From: Nocardioides panaciterrulae
GTDB lineage: Bacteria > Actinomycetota > Actinomycetes > Propionibacteriales > Nocardioidaceae
Assembly: GCF_013409645.1 (NCBI RefSeq)
Contig: NZ_JACCBG010000001.1
Location: forward strand, 124,001 to 188,000
DNA: 64,000 nt
Reading direction: 5' to 3'
The notes below the pieces were generated by a model. It was not told where the DNA came from. It ran no database searches and was given only the letters and a program-made list of their open reading frames with translations. Shown in pieces: positions 24,483 to 32,436 of this stretch (its first letter is position 1; every line of letters begins with the position of its first letter). Position numbers and translations under genes: made by a program.

Positions 24483-24540
24483 TTGAATTATCGCCATACT
24501 GCAAGGAACTATGGGTGTTGAGCGGGGAACGGAGATCGGT

Positions 24541-25701
24541 GTGACCGAGTTGGAGGAGCGACAGCAGGCCTGGCCGACGCTGGACGGGCTGGCGCGCGAC
24601 CTCTCGCTCGAGGTGCTCATCCGGGGGCCGCTGCCCCGGCGCGAGCTGGCGGCCAAGTTCGGGGTGTCCGCCGCGACCCTGACCCGGACGGTGGCGCCGC
24701 TCATCGAGCGCGGGGTGCTGATCGAGCTCGAGGAGCCGCTCGCCGGCGGCCTGGGGCGGCCCGCCCGGCTGCTCGACGTCCCGGCGAGCACCCACCGGTT
24801 CGTCGGCCTCAAGCTCACCGGCGACTGCGTGCACGGGGTGCTCACCGACCTCCGCGCCCAGATCGCGGCCTCGCGGACCGTGCAGCTCGAGACCCTCGAG
24901 CCGGCGCGGGTCGCTGAGCAGGTCGCCCGCCTGGTCGAGCAGCTGGACACGGGTCGGGACGCGACCGCGGTGGGCATCAGCTTCGGCGGGGTCAGCCACG
25001 ACGGCCGCACCGTCGCCCGGGCGCCGTTCCTGGACTGGCACCAGGTGCCGTTGGCGGAGCTGGTCGAGCAGGCCACCGGCCTGCCGGTGATCCTCGAGAA
25101 CGACCTGGTCGCGCTGGCCGGGGCCGAGCACTGGTTCGGCGAGGGGCGCACGGTGTCGAGCTTCGCCGTCCTCACCATCGGCATCGGCGTGGGCTACGGC
25201 CTGGTCGTGCACGACCGCGTCGTCACCCACCGAGACGTCGGGGTGGGGCTCGTCGGCCACTACCCGCTGGACCCGCAGGGGCCGCGCTGTCCCAGCGGCC
25301 ACCACGGATGCGCCGAGGCGATGCTGACCACCACCGGGATCAGCTCGCAGGTCTCGGTCGCCCACCGCCGCCCGGTCGGCTACGACGAGGCGCTCGAGCT
25401 GGCCCGCCAGGGTGACCCGGTGGCGCTGCAGGTCGTCACCGCCGCCGGCCACGCGTTGGGCCGGCTCATCGCCGCCGTCGCCAACCTGGCGATGCCCGAG
25501 CGGATCTTCCTGTCCGGGGAGGGGATCGAGCTGGCCCGGCTGGTCTGGGCGTCGGTGTGGGCGGGAGTGCAGCGCGATCGGGACCCCGCCGCCTCGACCG
25601 TCGACGTGGCCGTGCAGCCCTACGACTCCGACCAGTGGGCCCGGGGAGCGGCCGCGATCGCGATCCAGCACCACGTTCTCGGCTCCGCGTCGACGCGCTG
25701 A
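24541..25701 (+). CDS. ROK-family transcriptional regulator
   Basis: A 386-residue repressor of the ROK (NagC/XylR-type) family. The N-terminal winged helix is at RRELAAKFGVSAATLTRTV; the sugar-kinase fold follows (VGISFGGVS, ENDLVALAGAEHWFG, TIGIGVGYGLV). The structural zinc motif reads CPSGHHGCAE: the usual second cysteine (CxCGxxGC) is Ser, so zinc binding may be altered. GTG 24541 has GGAG 6 nt upstream; ATG 24511 is an alternative start with a shorter-spaced site. Divergent from the isomalto-sugar operon and probably its regulator. Confidence 0.85.
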   Translation: MTELEERQQAWPTLDGLARDLSLEVLIRGPLPRRELAAKFGVSAATLTRTVAPLIERGVLIELEEPLAGGLGRPARLLDVPASTHRFVGLKLTGDCVHGVLTDLRAQIAASRTVQLETLEPARVAEQVARLVEQLDTGRDATAVGISFGGVSHDGRTVARAPFLDWHQVPLAELVEQATGLPVILENDLVALAGAEHWFGEGRTVSSFAVLTIGIGVGYGLVVHDRVVTHRDVGVGLVGHYPLDPQGPRCPSGHHGCAEAMLTTTGISSQVSVAHRRPVGYDEALELARQGDPVALQVVTAAGHALGRLIAAVANLAMPERIFLSGEGIELARLVWASVWAGVQRDRDPAASTVDVAVQPYDSDQWARGAAAIAIQHHVLGSASTR

Positions 25702-25736
25702 CGCTGCCCCGCCCCCTCATGCGGCAGGCTGTGCGC

Positions 25737-27491
25737 ATGTACTACGTCGGGGTCGACCTCGCCTGGGGGCGGCGCAAGCCCACCGGGCTGGCCGCGCTCG
25801 ACGACGACGGCCGGCTCGTGCACGTCTCCGCGGTCACCACCGACGAGGAGATCGTCGCCGCGCTGGCGCCGTACGTCGAGGGCGACTGCGTGGTCGCCGT
25901 CGACGCGCCGCTGGTGGTCCGCAACGCGACCGGCAACCGGGCGGCCGAGGCCGAGCTCAACCGCGACTTCGCCCGGTTCGACGCCGGGGCGCACCCCTCG
26001 AACACCGGCAAGCCGGAGCTGGTCTCGCCCCGCGGCGCGCTGCTCGCGGACAAGCTCGGCCTCTCCCTGGACCCCGCGCCTGGCAACGGCCGCCGGGCGG
26101 TCGAGGTCTACCCGCACGCGGCCACGGTCTCGCTGTTCCGGCTGGGCCGGACCCTGAAGTACAAGAACAAGACCGGCCGCTCCCTGGAGTCGCTGCGCGG
26201 GGAGATGCTGGTGCTGATGGGCCTGCTCGAGGGGCTCGCCGACGCCGACCCGGCGCTGCACGTCAACGGGACCTGGCGCACCCTGGTCACGGCCGTCGAG
26301 GAGGCCGGTCGCAAGAGCGAGCTGCGGGTGGTCGAGGACCAGGTCGACGCGGTGCTCTGCGCCTACGTCGCCCTCTTCGCGACCCGCCGGCCGCAGCAGA
26401 CCACGACGTACGGCGACCCCGAGCACGGCTGCATCGTCACCCCGGCGCTGCCTGAGGGCCTCGAGCCGACCCCGCGGGAGCGCCGCAGCGCCACCGCGGG
26501 GGACCGGGTGGCCGCCGCGGTGCGTGAGTACGCCGTGGCGCAGCCGTCGCTGCGCGGGGCCGCCGAGCAGGCGGTCGCGCTGGTCCGGACCGTGCTCGAC
26601 GACGCCGGCATCAACTACCTCACCGTGGACGGCCGGGCCAAGAGCGTGGCGTCGTTCGCGGCCAAGGCGGCCCGGATCGAGGACGGCGCCCCGGCGTACC
26701 CCGACCCGCTGCGCGACATCACCGACCAGGTCGGCGTCCGGGTGATCACCTACGTGCACAGCGACGTGGCCGCGGTCGCGGACCTGCTCGGCGACCAGGT
26801 GGTGGTCCGCGACGACCGCGACATGGGCCGCGAGACCGCGAGCCAGGGCCGGTTCGGGTACGCCAGCCGGCACCTGCTGATCGAGCTGGACGCCGCCCGG
26901 GAGGGCCAGGAGGCCTACGAGCTGCTGCGCGGCCGGGTCGTGCAGGTGCAGATCCGCACGGTGCTGCAGCACGCGTGGGCGGAGTTCGAGCACGACATCC
27001 GCTACAAGGGCACCATCCCCGACGAGCACGTGCCGGACTTCGACCGCCGCTTCACGCTGGCCGCCGGCCTGCTGGAGCTGGCCGACCAGGAGTTCGAGAC
27101 GATCCGGGAGCGGCTGCAGCAGGGGCTCCGGGTCGCGCCCGCCGAGCACGTCGACGACGACCCGCGGATCAGCCCGCGCGAGCTCGCGGCGTTCCTCGCC
27201 GGCCAGTACGCCGACGCCGGCTGGTCGCGCACCGACCACTACGCGTGGATCTCCGGGCTGCTGCTGGAGCTGGGCATCGCCTCGCTCGACGAGCTGGGCG
27301 AGGTGCTCCGGGCGGTCGACTCGGCCGCGCTCAACGAGCGGATGGACTACCGCTACCCGCCCGGCGCCGTCCGCCGGCTCGACGACGCGCTGCTGGCGGC
27401 CTACGACGAGCAGTACGTCGCGCTGCACGGCAACAGTCACCGGGTGCCGCTGCTGGAGGCCCGGCTGGCCCGGCTCCGCGGCCAGCCCTGA
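25737..27491 (+). CDS. DUF429 domain fused to a RelA/SpoT nucleotide pyrophosphokinase domain
   Basis: A 584-residue two-domain protein. Residues 1-240 are a DUF429 RNase H-like domain with acidic residues Asp7 (GVDLAWG), Asp56 (VAVDAPLV), Glu123 (AVEVYPHA) and Asp204 (EDQVDAVLCAYV). Residues about 285-425 are a RelA/SpoT synthetase domain: GRAKSVASFAAK (Arg300, Lys302, Ser306), DITDQVGVRV (Asp330, Arg335), GYASRH (374-379), and VQVQIRTVLQHAWAEFEHD. The usual catalytic Glu of the EVQIRT motif is Gln403. The C-terminal 140 residues are helical. No hydrolase (HD) domain is present. The start is ATG 25737. A role as alarmone synthetase or toxSAS-type effector is inference. Confidence 0.82.
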   Translation: MYYVGVDLAWGRRKPTGLAALDDDGRLVHVSAVTTDEEIVAALAPYVEGDCVVAVDAPLVVRNATGNRAAEAELNRDFARFDAGAHPSNTGKPELVSPRGALLADKLGLSLDPAPGNGRRAVEVYPHAATVSLFRLGRTLKYKNKTGRSLESLRGEMLVLMGLLEGLADADPALHVNGTWRTLVTAVEEAGRKSELRVVEDQVDAVLCAYVALFATRRPQQTTTYGDPEHGCIVTPALPEGLEPTPRERRSATAGDRVAAAVREYAVAQPSLRGAAEQAVALVRTVLDDAGINYLTVDGRAKSVASFAAKAARIEDGAPAYPDPLRDITDQVGVRVITYVHSDVAAVADLLGDQVVVRDDRDMGRETASQGRFGYASRHLLIELDAAREGQEAYELLRGRVVQVQIRTVLQHAWAEFEHDIRYKGTIPDEHVPDFDRRFTLAAGLLELADQEFETIRERLQQGLRVAPAEHVDDDPRISPRELAAFLAGQYADAGWSRTDHYAWISGLLLELGIASLDELGEVLRAVDSAALNERMDYRYPPGAVRRLDDALLAAYDEQYVALHGNSHRVPLLEARLARLRGQP

Positions 27492-27592: not shown

Positions 27593-29281
27593 ATGAGCTC
27601 AACGACCTCCGGAAGCCTGCACCGCTACACCGCGCTGGTCCGGCTGCTGGTCCGGCACGGCCGGTCGGACCTGGTGTCCGGCGCGGGCCTGGACGAGTTC
27701 GCGGTCGACGAGGAGCGCCCGACCGGCGACCAGGGTCGGGCCGAGGCGTTCGCCCGGGACCTGGAGGAGCTCGGCCCGACGTACATCAAGCTGGGCCAGC
27801 TGCTCTCGACCCGCTTCGACCTGCTGCCGCCGGCGTACACCACCGCGCTGGCGCGGCTGCAGGATGACGCCGAGCCGTTCCCCTACGAGCAGGTGGAGGC
27901 GATCGTCGAGGCCGAGCTGGGCGGGCAGGTGCGGCACCTGTTCGCGGACTTCGAGCGCGAGCCGCTGGCGGCCGCCTCGCTCGGCCAGGTCCACCGCGCG
28001 ACGCTCCCCGGCGGCCGCGAGGTGGTGGTCAAGGTGCAGCGCCCCGACGCCCGGGAGGTGGCCCGCGAGGACATGGAGGTGCTCGCGCGCCTCGCCGGCC
28101 TCGCGGACCGGCACACCGAGGCCGGGCACCGGTTCGGGTTCGAGCAGCTGCTCGGGCAGTTCCGGCGCTCGCTGGCCGGCGAGCTGGACTACCGGCGCGA
28201 GGCGCGCAACCTGGCGAAGTTCCGCGAGCTGACCCAGCCCTACGACCTGCTGGTCGTGCCGGAGCCGGTCCTCGACCACTCCTCGTCGCGGGTGCTCACC
28301 ATGGAGCGCATCGAGGGGCGCAAGGTGACCGACGTCGGGCCGCTCGGCCTGCTCGACGTGGACGCCGCGCCGATCGTGGAGCAGCTGTTCCGCTGCTACC
28401 TGAACCTGATGCTCGACGAGGGCGTGGTGCACGCCGACCCGCACCCGGGGAACCTGCTGCTCACCGACGACGGCCGGCTGGCGCTGTTGGACCTGGGCAT
28501 GGTGAGCATGATCCCGCCGCGGATCCAGGACCGGGTGCTCAAGCTGCTGCTCGCGATCGGCGACGGCGACGGCGAGGAGGCGGCGAAGGTGCTGGCCGCC
28601 ATGGGTCAGCCCCTCGACGAGTACGACGCCGCCGCGTTCCGCTCGGACGTGGCGCACCTGGTCTCCGAGGCGACCGCCGCCGGGCCGCACCAGCAGGCCG
28701 GCAAGGTTCTGGTCGAGCTCAGCCGGCTCAGCGGCGCGCACGGCCTGCGCCCGCCCGCGGAGATGTCGATGATCGGCAAGGCGCTGCTCAACCTCGACCA
28801 GTCGACGCTGCACCTCGACCCGGACTTCGACCCCGCCGAGGCGGTCCGGGCCAACCTCAGCGACCTGCTCACCAGCGGGCTGAAGGTGAGCCGGGGCGGG
28901 GTCATGGCCGCGGCGCTGGAGGCCAAGGAGTTCACCGCGCAGCTGCCCCGCCGCGGCAACCGGATCCTGGACAGCCTGGCCGACGGCGAGTTCACCATCC
29001 GGGTGCAGGCGGTCGACGAGGAGCGGCTGCACCGGGTCCTGCAGCGTCTCGCCAACCGGGTGACGCTGGGCATCGTGATCGCCGCGACCCTGCTCGGCGC
29101 CGCCCTGATGATGCGGGTGCCCACCGACCACCGGATCCTCGGCTACCCCTCCCTGGCGATGGGCTTCTTCTCCTTCGCCGTGCTCGCCGGCATCGCGCTG
29201 GGCGTGTGGATCGTGATGACCGACCGCAAGGTGGCCAGGACCGTGCGGCCCAGCCCGGGCGACACCGGCCCGGGGATCTGA
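27593..29281 (+). CDS. ABC1/AarF/UbiB-family atypical kinase
   Basis: A 562-residue membrane-associated atypical kinase. The KxGQ motif (IKLGQLLSTRFDLLP), the Ala-rich loop (AAASLGQVH), the VVKVQRP lysine, HADPHPGNLL and LLDLGMV (metal-binding Asp) identify it. Two C-terminal membrane helices (VTLGIVIAATLLGAAL and MGFFSFAVLAGIALGVWIV) anchor it. Family members support quinone or isoprenoid-lipid metabolism; in a menaquinone-using actinobacterium the exact role is unknown. ATG 27593 is preceded by ATAGGAGAG. It converges with the F420 oxidoreductase gene across a large inverted repeat. Confidence 0.88.
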   Translation: MSSTTSGSLHRYTALVRLLVRHGRSDLVSGAGLDEFAVDEERPTGDQGRAEAFARDLEELGPTYIKLGQLLSTRFDLLPPAYTTALARLQDDAEPFPYEQVEAIVEAELGGQVRHLFADFEREPLAAASLGQVHRATLPGGREVVVKVQRPDAREVAREDMEVLARLAGLADRHTEAGHRFGFEQLLGQFRRSLAGELDYRREARNLAKFRELTQPYDLLVVPEPVLDHSSSRVLTMERIEGRKVTDVGPLGLLDVDAAPIVEQLFRCYLNLMLDEGVVHADPHPGNLLLTDDGRLALLDLGMVSMIPPRIQDRVLKLLLAIGDGDGEEAAKVLAAMGQPLDEYDAAAFRSDVAHLVSEATAAGPHQQAGKVLVELSRLSGAHGLRPPAEMSMIGKALLNLDQSTLHLDPDFDPAEAVRANLSDLLTSGLKVSRGGVMAAALEAKEFTAQLPRRGNRILDSLADGEFTIRVQAVDEERLHRVLQRLANRVTLGIVIAATLLGAALMMRVPTDHRILGYPSLAMGFFSFAVLAGIALGVWIVMTDRKVARTVRPSPGDTGPGI

Positions 29282-29383: not shown

Positions 29384-30382
29384 TCAGCTCGAGGCGGCCC
29401 GGAGCTTCTCCAGCAGCGGACGGGCGGCCTCGGCGAGGAACGCGTCCTGGCTCTCGTCGCCGACCTGCACCAGCGCGACGTCGGTGAAGCCGGCCTCCCA
29501 GAACGCGCTGACCGCCTCGACGATCCGGTCCAGGTCCGGGCCGCACGGGATCGACTCGGCGACGTCCTCGGGGCGGACGAACTGGGTCGCGCCCGAGAAC
29601 CCCCGCGGCGTCGGCAGGTCGGCGTTCACCTTCCACCCGCCGGCGAACCACCGGAACTGCTCGTGGGCGCGCTGGACCGCCACGGCCTCGTCGGGGTCCC
29701 AGCAGATCGGGATCTGGCCGACGGCCCGGGCGCCCTCCCCGATCCGGGTGGCGCCCTCGACGGCGTTCCACGACTCGACCAGGTCGGCGCGCGGCTCCAC
29801 CGCGATCAGGTGGTCGCCGATCGGTGCGAAGTGCTCGATGGCCCGGTCCCCGGCCACCGCGAGCGCGAGCTCGACCGGCTGCTCCGGCAGGTCCCAGATG
29901 CGCGCGGAGTCGACGTCGAAGTGCTCGCCCCGGAAGGTCACCAGCTCCCCGGTGTGCAGCGCCCGGATGATCTCGACGGCCTCGGCGAGCATCTCCTGCC
30001 GGGTCTGGATCGACGGCCAGCCGGCGCCCACCACGTGCTCGTTCAGGCTCTCGCCGCTGCCGAGGCCCAGGGTGAAGCGGCCCTCGGCGAGGAGCTGCAG
30101 CGTCGCCGCCTTCTGGGCGACCACGGCGGGGTGGTAGCGGATCGTCGGGCAGGTCACGTAGGTCATCAGGTCCACCCGCGAGGTCGCCTGGGCCACCGCG
30201 CCCAGCACCGTCCAGGCGTACGGCGCGTGCCCCTGCTCGGTCAGCCACGGGGAGTAGTGGTCGCTGGAGACCTCGAAGTCGAAGCCCGCCTCCTCCGCGC
30301 CCACGGCGTACCGCACCAGCTCGCGCGGACCGCTCTGCTCGGTCATCAGCGTGTAGCCGAACCGGGTCTGTGCTTCGGTCAC
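29384..30382 (-). CDS. F420-dependent LLM-class oxidoreductase (G6PDH-like family)
   Basis: A 332-residue TIM-barrel enzyme using coenzyme F420. FGYTLMTEQ, FEVSSDHYSPWL, TYVTCPTIRYHPAVVAQ and LGLGSGESLNEHVVG are signatures of the F420 G6PDH-like subfamily. The reaction is a hydride transfer to or from F420; the substrate is not predictable. GTG 30382 is preceded by a near-perfect GAGGAGG 5 nt upstream, which overrides the nearby out-of-frame ATG. It is divergent from the DinB gene. Confidence 0.88.
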   Translation of the reverse strand: MTEAQTRFGYTLMTEQSGPRELVRYAVGAEEAGFDFEVSSDHYSPWLTEQGHAPYAWTVLGAVAQATSRVDLMTYVTCPTIRYHPAVVAQKAATLQLLAEGRFTLGLGSGESLNEHVVGAGWPSIQTRQEMLAEAVEIIRALHTGELVTFRGEHFDVDSARIWDLPEQPVELALAVAGDRAIEHFAPIGDHLIAVEPRADLVESWNAVEGATRIGEGARAVGQIPICWDPDEAVAVQRAHEQFRWFAGGWKVNADLPTPRGFSGATQFVRPEDVAESIPCGPDLDRIVEAVSAFWEAGFTDVALVQVGDESQDAFLAEAARPLLEKLRAASS

Positions 30383-30443
30383 TGCATCCTCCTCGGGGGC
30401 CCCGCGGGCCCGGACGAACGTCGGACCACGCCCGTACCCCTCG

Positions 30444-30449
30444 TAGCCT
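30444..30449 (+). promoter_or_regulatory. -10 element of leaderless promoter (TAGCCT)
   Basis: TAGCCT ends 6 nt before ATG 30456. Confidence 0.45.
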
Positions 30450-30455
30450 CGAGCC

Positions 30456-30959
30456 ATGACACCTGCCGAGCTGCTGATCGACTCCTTCGGCCGGATCGCC
30501 GAGGGCGCCCACGACGTCGTCGACGGGCTGGACGAGGCCCAGCTGGCCCACCGCCCCGGGCCGGACGCCAACCCGATCGGGTGGCTGGTCTGGCACCTGG
30601 CCCGGGTCCAGGACGACCACGTCGCCGACGTGGCCGGCCGCGACCAGGTGTGGACCGGCCGCGGCTTCGCCGAGCGGTTCGCCCTGCCCTTCGACACCGG
30701 CGACATCGGCTACGGCCACTCCAGCGAGCAGGTCGGGCAGCTGCGCGCCGACGCCACGATGCTCCAGGAGTACGTCGCGGCCGTCCACGACCAGACCCGC
30801 GGCTACCTCGAGGGGCTCGCCGAGGCGGACCTTGACCGGGTCGTCGACGAGCGCTGGGACCCCCCGGTGACGTTGGGGGTGCGACTGGTCAGCGTGGTCG
30901 GCGACGACCTCCAGCACCTCGGCCAGGCGGCGTACGTCCGGGGGCTGCTCGGCGTCTGA
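30456..30959 (+). CDS. DinB/DUF664-family protein
   Basis: A 167-residue four-helix-bundle protein of the DinB superfamily. The metal-ligand histidines are placed as in the family: WLVWHLARVQDDH in the second helix and DDLQHLGQAAYVRGL near the C-terminus. Such enzymes often use mycothiol or bacillithiol as co-substrate for detoxification; the substrate is unknown. Leaderless promoter upstream. It converges with the MFS exporter across a CGGCC-rich spacer (30961-30995). Confidence 0.82.
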   Translation: MTPAELLIDSFGRIAEGAHDVVDGLDEAQLAHRPGPDANPIGWLVWHLARVQDDHVADVAGRDQVWTGRGFAERFALPFDTGDIGYGHSSEQVGQLRADATMLQEYVAAVHDQTRGYLEGLAEADLDRVVDERWDPPVTLGVRLVSVVGDDLQHLGQAAYVRGLLGV

Positions 30960-31018: not shown

Positions 31019-32305
31019 TCAGGTGACCTCGCGCATGGTCCGGCTGATCCGGTAGCGCACGAAGGCGGGGGCGGCGAGGGCGGCGACGACGGTGCCGACG
31101 ACCACGAGCACGCCGCCGCCGGCGGCGGTGGCGGCGGTGCCGACCAGCGCGGCGGAGGCGCCGTGGGCGACGTCGGCGATCCGCGGCCCGCCGGCGACCA
31201 CCACGATGAACACGCCCTGCAGCCGGCCGCGCACCGAGTCGGTGGCGGCGGTCATCAGCATGCTGTTGCGGAACGCCGAGGACGCCATGTCGGCGGCGCC
31301 GCCGAGGACCAGCGTCAGCACCGCGGCCACCAGCATCGGGGTCGGGCCGAGGCGGTCGGCGAGCCCCACCGCCACGCCGAAGCCGGTGATCGCCACGCCC
31401 CACAGCAGGATGCAGACGATCACGGCCCGGCCCTGGAGGTCGACCCGGGAGACCCAGCCGGAGAAGATGCCGCCGAGCACCGCGCCGGCGGGGATCGCGG
31501 CGAACAGCAGCGCGAACGCGAGGCCGCCCTCCGCCGGCCCGCCGAACGCCTCGTGCGCCACCTGGGGGAACAGCGCCCGCGGCATCCCGAAGGTCATCGC
31601 GATCAGGTCGACGACGAACGACATCAGCAGCACCGGGTGACCGCGCAGGTAGGTCAGGCCCTCGACCACCGAGCGCAGCCCGGGGGCGCCGGCGGCGCCC
31701 TCGACCGCCAGCCGGGGCAGCCGGACCACCGCGGACAGCGTGGCGAAGAGCGTGCAGGTGTCGATCAGGTAGAGCCAGGAGAAGCCGAGCACCGGGATCA
31801 GCGCCCCGGCGACCAGCGGGCCGGCGATCGCGCCGGCCTGGAAGATCGTCGTGTTCAGCGAGTTGGCGGCCGGCAGCAGGTCCAGCGAGATGATCTTCGG
31901 CAGCACCGCGCTGCGGGTCGGCTGGTTGACCGCGAAGAACGCCTGCTGGAGCGAGAACAGGCCCAGCAGCAGCCACACGTCGAGGCCGCCCACCGCGGCC
32001 TGCAGCCAGAACAGCGCGCTGGTCGCGATCAGCCCCACGGTCGTGCAGACCAGGATCGTACGGCGGTCCACGACGTCGGCCAGCGCGCCGCCCCAGAGCC
32101 CGAACACCACGAGCGGCACCAGGCCGAAGAGCCCGGTGAGTCCGACGTACGCCGAGGAGCCGGTCTCCGCGTAGATCTGCGCCGGCACCGCGACCACCGT
32201 CAGCTGGGCGCCGACGACCGTGACGATGTTGGCCAGCCAGAGCCGGCGGAAGTGCTCGTTGCGCAACGGCCGCGTGTCCGCGACGAGCCCTCGGAGTCCT
32301 GCCAC
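31019..32305 (-). CDS. MFS exporter (EntS-like)
   Basis: A 428-residue twelve-helix major facilitator of the MFS_3 group, which exports siderophores, macrolides or other small molecules. The cytoplasmic loop motif GGALADVVDRRTIL (motif A) is present after helix 2. The C-terminus ends in a short basic tail. The start is taken at GTG 32305 because TAGATT lies 8 nt upstream; GTG 32341 gives 12 more residues without a ribosome site. The substrate cannot be named. It is divergent from the ABC exporter operon. Confidence 0.82.
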   Translation of the reverse strand: MAGLRGLVADTRPLRNEHFRRLWLANIVTVVGAQLTVVAVPAQIYAETGSSAYVGLTGLFGLVPLVVFGLWGGALADVVDRRTILVCTTVGLIATSALFWLQAAVGGLDVWLLLGLFSLQQAFFAVNQPTRSAVLPKIISLDLLPAANSLNTTIFQAGAIAGPLVAGALIPVLGFSWLYLIDTCTLFATLSAVVRLPRLAVEGAAGAPGLRSVVEGLTYLRGHPVLLMSFVVDLIAMTFGMPRALFPQVAHEAFGGPAEGGLAFALLFAAIPAGAVLGGIFSGWVSRVDLQGRAVIVCILLWGVAITGFGVAVGLADRLGPTPMLVAAVLTLVLGGAADMASSAFRNSMLMTAATDSVRGRLQGVFIVVVAGGPRIADVAHGASAALVGTAATAAGGGVLVVVGTVVAALAAPAFVRYRISRTMREVT

Positions 32306-32313
32306 GTCCGGCG

Positions 32314-32319
32314 AATCTA
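32314..32319 (-). promoter_or_regulatory. -10 element of leaderless promoter (TAGATT)
   Basis: On the minus strand TAGATT ends 8 nt before GTG 32305 of the MFS gene. Confidence 0.4.
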
Positions 32320-32436
32320 CTGCCCGCAGCCCGGCCCGCACGCCGCCGGGCCGGCACCGGCGCAGCCGTGTCCGGCCTCCGGACGGTCACGAACCGATGA
32401 CGAACGGACGCGACGCAGCAAATAGGCTTGACGCCG

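Follow-up and report, generated by a model that had tools for sequence, protein, structure and literature searches.

What does a single polypeptide that joins a nuclease-type fold to an alarmone synthetase represent in the soil bacterium Nocardioides panaciterrulae, and is it, as a preliminary description of this locus proposed, a new kind of small-alarmone or tRNA-modifying effector? The gene in question occupies 25737..27491 on the forward strand of our window, by which we mean the whole 64,000-nucleotide stretch of DNA that was analysed, within a genome of 4.27 Mb represented by a single contig, and it forms one open frame of 584 amino acids plus a stop codon. A longer frame opens upstream at 25557; GC3 jumps from 0.65 over 25557-25736 to 0.99 from 25737 onward, and a start at the corresponding residue is shared by 11 relatives that we compared, which together make this position the likely true start of a relZ-like gene. 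A Pfam search of the protein returned DUF429 at aa 5-229 (94.4 bits against a cut-off of 23, E 1.1e-26) and RelA_SpoT at aa 299-425 (53.5 bits against a cut-off of 27, E 3.5e-14), and these were the only two families found at E <= 0.01, with no HD hydrolase, TGS or ACT domain among the matches. Two domains in an uninterrupted frame and the lack of a hydrolase, both read earlier from the sequence, were thus borne out.

We examined each part of the protein using an AlphaFold2 model of the whole chain (mean pLDDT 88.3, pTM 0.57), in which the domains are well predicted and their placement relative to one another is poorly predicted. The DUF429 domain (25749..26423, +) carries the candidate acids D7, D56, E123, D201 and D204, each of them conserved in at least 98% of 102 aligned fusions. 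When aa 1-232 of the model were compared to solved folds, the top match was RuvC 6s16 (Z 9.7, rmsd 3.6, 142 residues aligned), and this region looks like an RNase H-like, RuvC-like fold with acids D7 and D56 on strands 1 and 4, in agreement with the placement of DUF429 in clade D of the RNase H-like superfamily, together with RuvC, YqgF and Tex, reported in Majorek 2014. Because the RuvC chains (Z 9.3-9.7) tie with the mitochondrial transcription factor TEFM (Z 9.4), the fold alone shows neither substrate nor activity. The small-alarmone-synthetase domain (aa 252-463; 26490..27125, +), assigned from Pfam, homology and predicted fold, contains the Pfam RelA_SpoT core (aa 299-425; 26631-27011, +), and the model of aa 252-462 superimposes on RelP 6ewz with Z 17.8, an rmsd of 3.0 and 188 aligned residues. 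Matches of this half to RelP and RelQ range over Z 17.5-17.8, compared to 13.2 for the tRNA pyrophosphokinase CapRel, and the suggestion of a tRNA-modifying effector is accordingly left without specific support. Against the RelQ/YjbM equivalog (NF053588), the protein scores 42.1 bits, below the curated cut-off of 320.

A third conserved region, a C-terminal helical domain comprising the last 115 residues (aa 470-584; 27144..27488, +), was delimited from the predicted model and is missing from the preliminary description, whose two-domain reading holds but whose list of domains was incomplete. Modelled separately, this domain is predicted well (pLDDT 89.1, pTM 0.84), and a comparison with solved folds gave no confident PDB match, the best Foldseek E being 0.61 and the best second-look Z being 3.7. 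Since matches to four RelS-type synthetases extend to aa 563-583 and so run through it, the C-terminal helical domain is, judged by these alignments, part of the synthetase side of the protein.

The combination of domains rules out a new architecture, as the fusion of DUF429 to a synthetase was described in 2011 and 2014. Atkinson 2011 reports that some actRel synthetases of Mycobacterium have an N-terminal DUF429 and Majorek 2014 describes the DUF429-synthetase arrangement while noting that most DUF429 proteins are single-domain. A 2020 RelZ review presents M. smegmatis MSMEG_5849, also called MS_RHII-RSD or RelZ, as a protein that is both an RNase HII-type nuclease and a synthetase of (pp)pGpp. 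According to this review, RelZ hydrolyses RNA:DNA hybrids and R-loops, makes pGpp, ppGpp and pppGpp with the preference GMP > GDP > GTP, assembles as a hexamer, is inhibited by ssRNA and pppGpp, and is inactive when its halves are separated; these activities, like the Mg2+-independence considered below, are taken second-hand from papers. Homology and shared domain order indicate that the N. panaciterrulae protein is very probably a Nocardioides member of this known RelZ (actRel) family. What had been called a new kind of effector is indeed a nuclease-fold protein with an alarmone synthetase and no hydrolase, but of a kind known since 2011-2012. The protein has no match to PF01351 (RNase HII) at E <= 0.01, its N-terminal fold is RuvC-like and a canonical RNase HII is encoded separately, elsewhere in the same genome, so the 'RNase HII domain' of the RelZ literature is best read as the name of an activity, not of a family. 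RNase HII was also absent from the 50 second-look fold matches of aa 1-232, which proves nothing.

The distribution of the fusion was surveyed by scanning 84,980 species, each represented by one genome, with a sequence pattern; 449 relatives were confirmed, and the best 80 of these were retained and read. The whole fusion stands in one frame in all 80 of these best loci, at 61-80% identity, ruling out an assembly artefact as its source. Genera among the best 80 include Nocardioides, Mumia, Cellulomonas, Kineosporia, Ornithinimicrobium, Nostocoides, Actinopolymorpha, Klenkia, Georgenia, Nakamurella and Blastococcus, in addition to others, and Nocardioides supplies most of the closest named relatives (N. 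ungokensis, 80%). In a Mycobacterium-like genus with genomes mostly of 4-8 Mb, taken as Mycobacterium given that 295 of 396 genomes contain an often weak match (E <= 0.001) to MspA of M. smegmatis, 44 of 148 genomes encode a full-length fusion at 53-62% identity (one more is cut at a contig edge) and 73 of 148 encode a RelZ-type DUF429-only gene at 48-62%; all six mycobacterial DUF429-only genes that we read were of the RelZ type (54-61%). The survey across actinobacteria proposed in the preliminary description thus found the fusion itself, not two domains always encoded by separate genes, and each half also occurs alone. Searches of 72,556 plasmid records and 50,697 phage records turned up none with at least 80% of the protein, and carriage of the fusion by phages or plasmids was rejected on this basis.

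Among 296 genomes of the class, we found 22 full fusions, 11 close synthetase-only forms (51-68%) and 12 close DUF429-only forms (52-61%). The two close single forms never occurred together in these 296 genomes, in most of which the best four candidates were scored, leading us to reject the splitting of one gene into two. Using the DUF429 profile, we detected a separate DUF429 gene in eight of the 11 genomes with the synthetase alone; in the 22 fused genomes the profile matched the fusion and no other gene. These eight genes (L219-L226, from G250, G264, G164, G042, G290, G119, G155 and G157) belong to another DUF429 subfamily and have no significant similarity to the RelZ-type DUF429 domain (best E 1.2), and hence they are not the lost half; their presence may reflect descent rather than replacement, the genomes being related. 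The start of the L220 frame resembles the tail of a Nudix domain. Judging from these gene inventories, both modules can exist alone, although the review reports that the M. smegmatis halves are inactive apart. Two further observations concern the Mycobacterium-like genus: in one genome a full fusion has a DUF429-only gene immediately upstream (L177; G421:C202:11700-15400), and three genomes of 3.2-3.3 Mb (G361, G373 and G396) retain only short or stop-ridden DUF429 remnants. A long DUF429-only match is kept in a genome of 3.1 Mb (G406), and size alone therefore does not explain the remnants.

We next consider the active site of the synthetase. The residues of the ATP and GTP sites (R, K, S, K; the Mg Asp; G-Y-x-S-x-H; Q-x-R-T; H; K) are present in the protein, and of the positions checked only the canonical Glu is replaced: the codon CAG at 26943..26945 (+) places Q403 at the position of the catalytic, metal-binding Glu of the E-x-Q-x-R-T motif. 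The earlier claim that most active-site residues are retained was accurate, given that the DUF429 acids and the checked synthetase residues are kept with the exception of Q403. To place this substitution in the family, we aligned 178 synthetase rows, namely 132 fusions, 11 close synthetase-only forms and 35 other small synthetases of the class, counting identical synthetase stretches once and dropping loci without a synthetase match. The fusions have Q (72), S (51), A (7), T (1) and E (1) in the Glu column and the close synthetase-only forms have S in all 11 cases, for a total of 142 non-Glu rows out of 143 in the RelZ clade. All 35 other small synthetases have E, as does the genome's own long Rel, which was read apart. 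The same holds for all 30 RelS-type loci that we fetched and read, including those from a Corynebacterium-like genus with genomes of 2-3 Mb; these came from a search of 48 rows, of which five others are RelZ fusions and the remaining 13 lie outside the count, and one of the genomes (G102) also contributes to the 35 other synthetases. All 132 fusions agree at thirteen further positions: R300, K302, S306, K310, D330, R335, Y375, S377, H379, Q405, R407, H419 and K424. The M. smegmatis RelZ sequence was not found in the searched sets and no identical MspA occurs among the 396 genomes; the nearest stand-in is a fusion (L183) with Ser at the Glu position, from a genome (G621) with five MspA-type porins, of which four share 97-99% identity with MspA of M. 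smegmatis.

In phmmer alignments, taken by their ranges and assuming no gap between 403 and 438, aa 330 aligns to residue 107 and aa 403 to residue 174 of S. aureus RelP. We take E335 of E. coli RelA to be the same position as Q403. In S. aureus RelP, Mg2+ is bound by Asp107 and Glu174, and the RelA'-E335Q variant is reported to serve as a catalytic-dead control. By analogy, a natural Q at an E335-type position could mean weak or no synthesis. A single fusion of the 132 keeps the Glu, in the sequence VEIQIRT (L101, on the minus strand of G066). We built a tree without the Glu column from 85 rows, comprising a hand-picked 55 of the 178 and the 30 RelS-type loci and leaving out the very long L147. 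RelS-type sequences separate from the RelZ-clade rows (SH-aLRT 96), and one change between E and not-E is needed. L101 falls at the base of the RelZ clade, in an unsupported fork, both here and in a wider tree, a position that would fit fusion first and loss of Glu afterwards, with reversion as the alternative. L147, a very long E-bearing branch, lies among the RelZ-clade rows in the wider tree, in the same basal fork as L101.

The loss of this residue coincides with a reported difference in metal requirement. A paper on C. glutamicum RelS cites, second-hand, an Mg2+-independent pyrophosphokinase activity of M. smegmatis MS_RHII-RSD, reports that C. glutamicum RelS is inactive without Mg2+ and deviates only slightly from the ExQIRT motif, and calls the shared subgroup of RelS with MS_RHII-RSD questionable. 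A Glu that is lost in RelZ and kept in RelS-type synthetases fits this difference; the Mg2+-independence of RelZ could also be an assay effect. We found no link between Glu loss and Mg2+-independence in the literature searched, and the primary RelZ papers may make such a link.

Upstream of the gene, the hexamer CAGGCT at 25725..25730 (+) resembles a -10 element and ends 6 nt before the ATG. Among 122 distinct sequences upstream of fused relatives, 108 carry a [TC]AnnnT hexamer whose end lies 6 or 7 nt ahead of the start codon, as compared to a mean of 2.6 and a maximum of 8 in 200 mononucleotide shuffles. Many of the 122 come from related species and are hence not independent; CAGGCT is the commonest form, present in 39 of the regions. 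This conserved motif and its spacing predict that the relZ mRNA is leaderless and lend further support to the start at 25737. A second match to the hexamer occurs at 27 nt before the start in 12 of the 122 regions, and CTTACG, which is seen in some of the mycobacterial upstream regions, may be part of the promoter there. A search for a RecA-independent damage-promoter motif upstream of relZ returned one misplaced match in 128 regions.

The genes that adjoin relZ in the window are not conserved beside it. A ROK-family regulator lies just upstream (24511-25701, +) and an ABC1/UbiB-like kinase downstream (27593-29281, +); the former adjoins relZ in 0 and the latter is found in 1 of 80 relatives' loci, and an operon with either gene was rejected. 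Further downstream are a luciferase-like monooxygenase (29384-30706, -), a DinB/mycothiol-S-transferase-like gene (30456-30959, +) and an MFS transporter (31019-32341, -). Genes of these three kinds are found close to relZ at about 9-15 of the 80 loci, luciferase-like monooxygenase and MFS genes in 12-15 and the commonest neighbour in 13-15. Within flanks of up to 6 kb, these 80 loci conserve neither an operon partner nor an antitoxin nor a defence neighbourhood.

From the domains, homology, conservation, Glu absence and fold similarity computed here, we infer that the protein is probably a chromosomal stress enzyme of the RelZ type, with dual nuclease and synthetase function, a leaderless mRNA and a loss of Glu that would account for the Mg2+-independence reported for RelZ. 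It would be expressed outside any conserved operon and translated from the leaderless message. Its N-terminal RuvC-like DUF429 domain would cut nucleic acid, as mycobacterial RelZ is reported to do with RNA:DNA hybrids and R-loops, and its C-terminal half would transfer pyrophosphate from ATP onto GMP, GDP or GTP to give pGpp, ppGpp or pppGpp, such that the removal of replication-transcription conflicts could be coupled to alarmone output. The synthetase of the RelZ clade would use one metal ligand (D330), the second (Glu) having been lost, and would thus need no added Mg2+. Against this account stand the use of E335Q as a dead control, the Glu kept by L101, the placement of the E-bearing L147 among clade rows in the wider tree, and the absence of the M. 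smegmatis sequence itself from the sets searched.

The first of these points also speaks for a quite unlikely alternative, in which the synthetase half has, across the RelZ clade, turned into a sensor of nucleotides or alarmones that synthesizes little or nothing and regulates or scaffolds the nuclease, the missing Glu being a scar of lost catalysis. Replacement of the canonical Glu by Q, S, A or T in all but one row of the clade, the catalytic defect of the RelA' mutant and the inhibition by pppGpp and ssRNA and inactivity of isolated halves given in the review would all suit a sensor. However, invariance of the 13 other active-site positions from R300 to K424 speaks for retained catalysis, production of all three alarmones is reported for M. 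smegmatis RelZ, and synthetase-only forms exist without any fused nuclease to regulate. With regard to the nuclease half, it is unlikely that this domain acts mainly on branched DNA, in the manner of a RuvC-like resolvase, or on some other substrate, with cleavage of RNA:DNA hybrids as a side activity. That RuvC resolvases lead the solved-fold matches of aa 1-232, that DUF429 is assigned to clade D alongside RuvC, YqgF and Tex, and that the protein lacks a PF01351 match in a genome with its own canonical RNase HII are consistent with such a role, but cleavage of RNA:DNA hybrids and R-loops is the activity reported for M. smegmatis RelZ and the tie between TEFM and RuvC deprives the fold of any say on substrate.

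A CapRel-like role as a phage-defence or toxin-like effector, with a nuclease joined to a synthetase that resembles toxSAS enzymes, is highly improbable. Residues 1-241 (25737-26459) match the PADLOC candidate PDC-S44 with an E of 8.2e-82, CapRel is among the structural matches of the predicted model and some distant small synthetases are found in phages and prophages. As the C-terminal helical domain gave no confident PDB match, it may include a fused antitoxin-like part. Nonetheless, we rejected PDC-S44 as evidence for defence, as it is a bare candidate label and conserved neighbours are lacking, the 80 loci having revealed no recurrent partner or antitoxin-like gene (the commonest neighbour in 13-15, the ROK regulator in none). 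Moreover, the plasmid and phage records contain no copy of the protein at the 80% threshold, and RelP and RelQ match the synthetase better than CapRel does.

Returning to the chromosomal stress enzyme that we favour, a bolder and more tentative version of its synthetase can be put forward, in which the RelZ clade is a naturally Glu-less lineage that lost the residue once, after the fusion arose, and that possibly carries out a metal-light pyrophosphate transfer with GMP as the preferred acceptor. If this were true, RelZ would represent its own kind of RSH synthetase, set apart by mechanism, for which L101 (fused, with Glu) and RelS (unfused, with Glu) are natural controls. A reported and unexplained property of RelZ, that it needs no Mg2+, coincides with the loss of a residue that binds Mg2+ in RelP, and what this Glu does in alarmone synthetases becomes testable with natural variants, beyond dead mutants. 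The points that we consider new and worth keeping are that Glu is lost across the clade, with a possible link to Mg2+-independence, that the nuclease half looks RuvC-like and has no match to the RNase HII family, that the C-terminus forms a third, helical domain, that a leaderless promoter is predicted, and that each half can also stand by itself.

Compared to known systems, the protein most closely parallels RelZ of M. smegmatis, with which it shares an N-terminal DUF429 and a C-terminal RelA/SpoT synthetase in one chain, the absence of an HD domain, an actinobacterial host and a similar size (64.5 kDa as reported, 584 aa here). It differs in belonging to another genus and in having Gln where the nearest mycobacterial stand-in has Ser at the Glu position. 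A RelZ-type protein from Marmoricola is already in print in the C. glutamicum paper, and the fusion reported here extends this known story in that RelZ is not a mycobacterial oddity. The RelS-type synthetases are named for RelS of C. glutamicum, an actRel that lacks the RNase domain; in our tree they form the sister group of synthetases, and they have the C-terminal extension in common with RelZ. They differ in that they have no fused DUF429 and keep the catalytic Glu at every locus read, among which C. glutamicum's own RelS was not identified, and the C. glutamicum enzyme is reported to be strictly Mg2+-dependent. RelP and RelQ (SAS2 and SAS1, or YwaC and YjbM) share the synthetase fold and most active-site residues, but they are single-domain proteins in which the catalytic Glu is present. 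Finally, the N-terminal half is a DUF429 (COG4328) domain of the RNase H-like superfamily, clade D with RuvC, complete with the expected acids, and whereas most members of that family are reported to stand alone, here the domain is fused to an alarmone synthetase.
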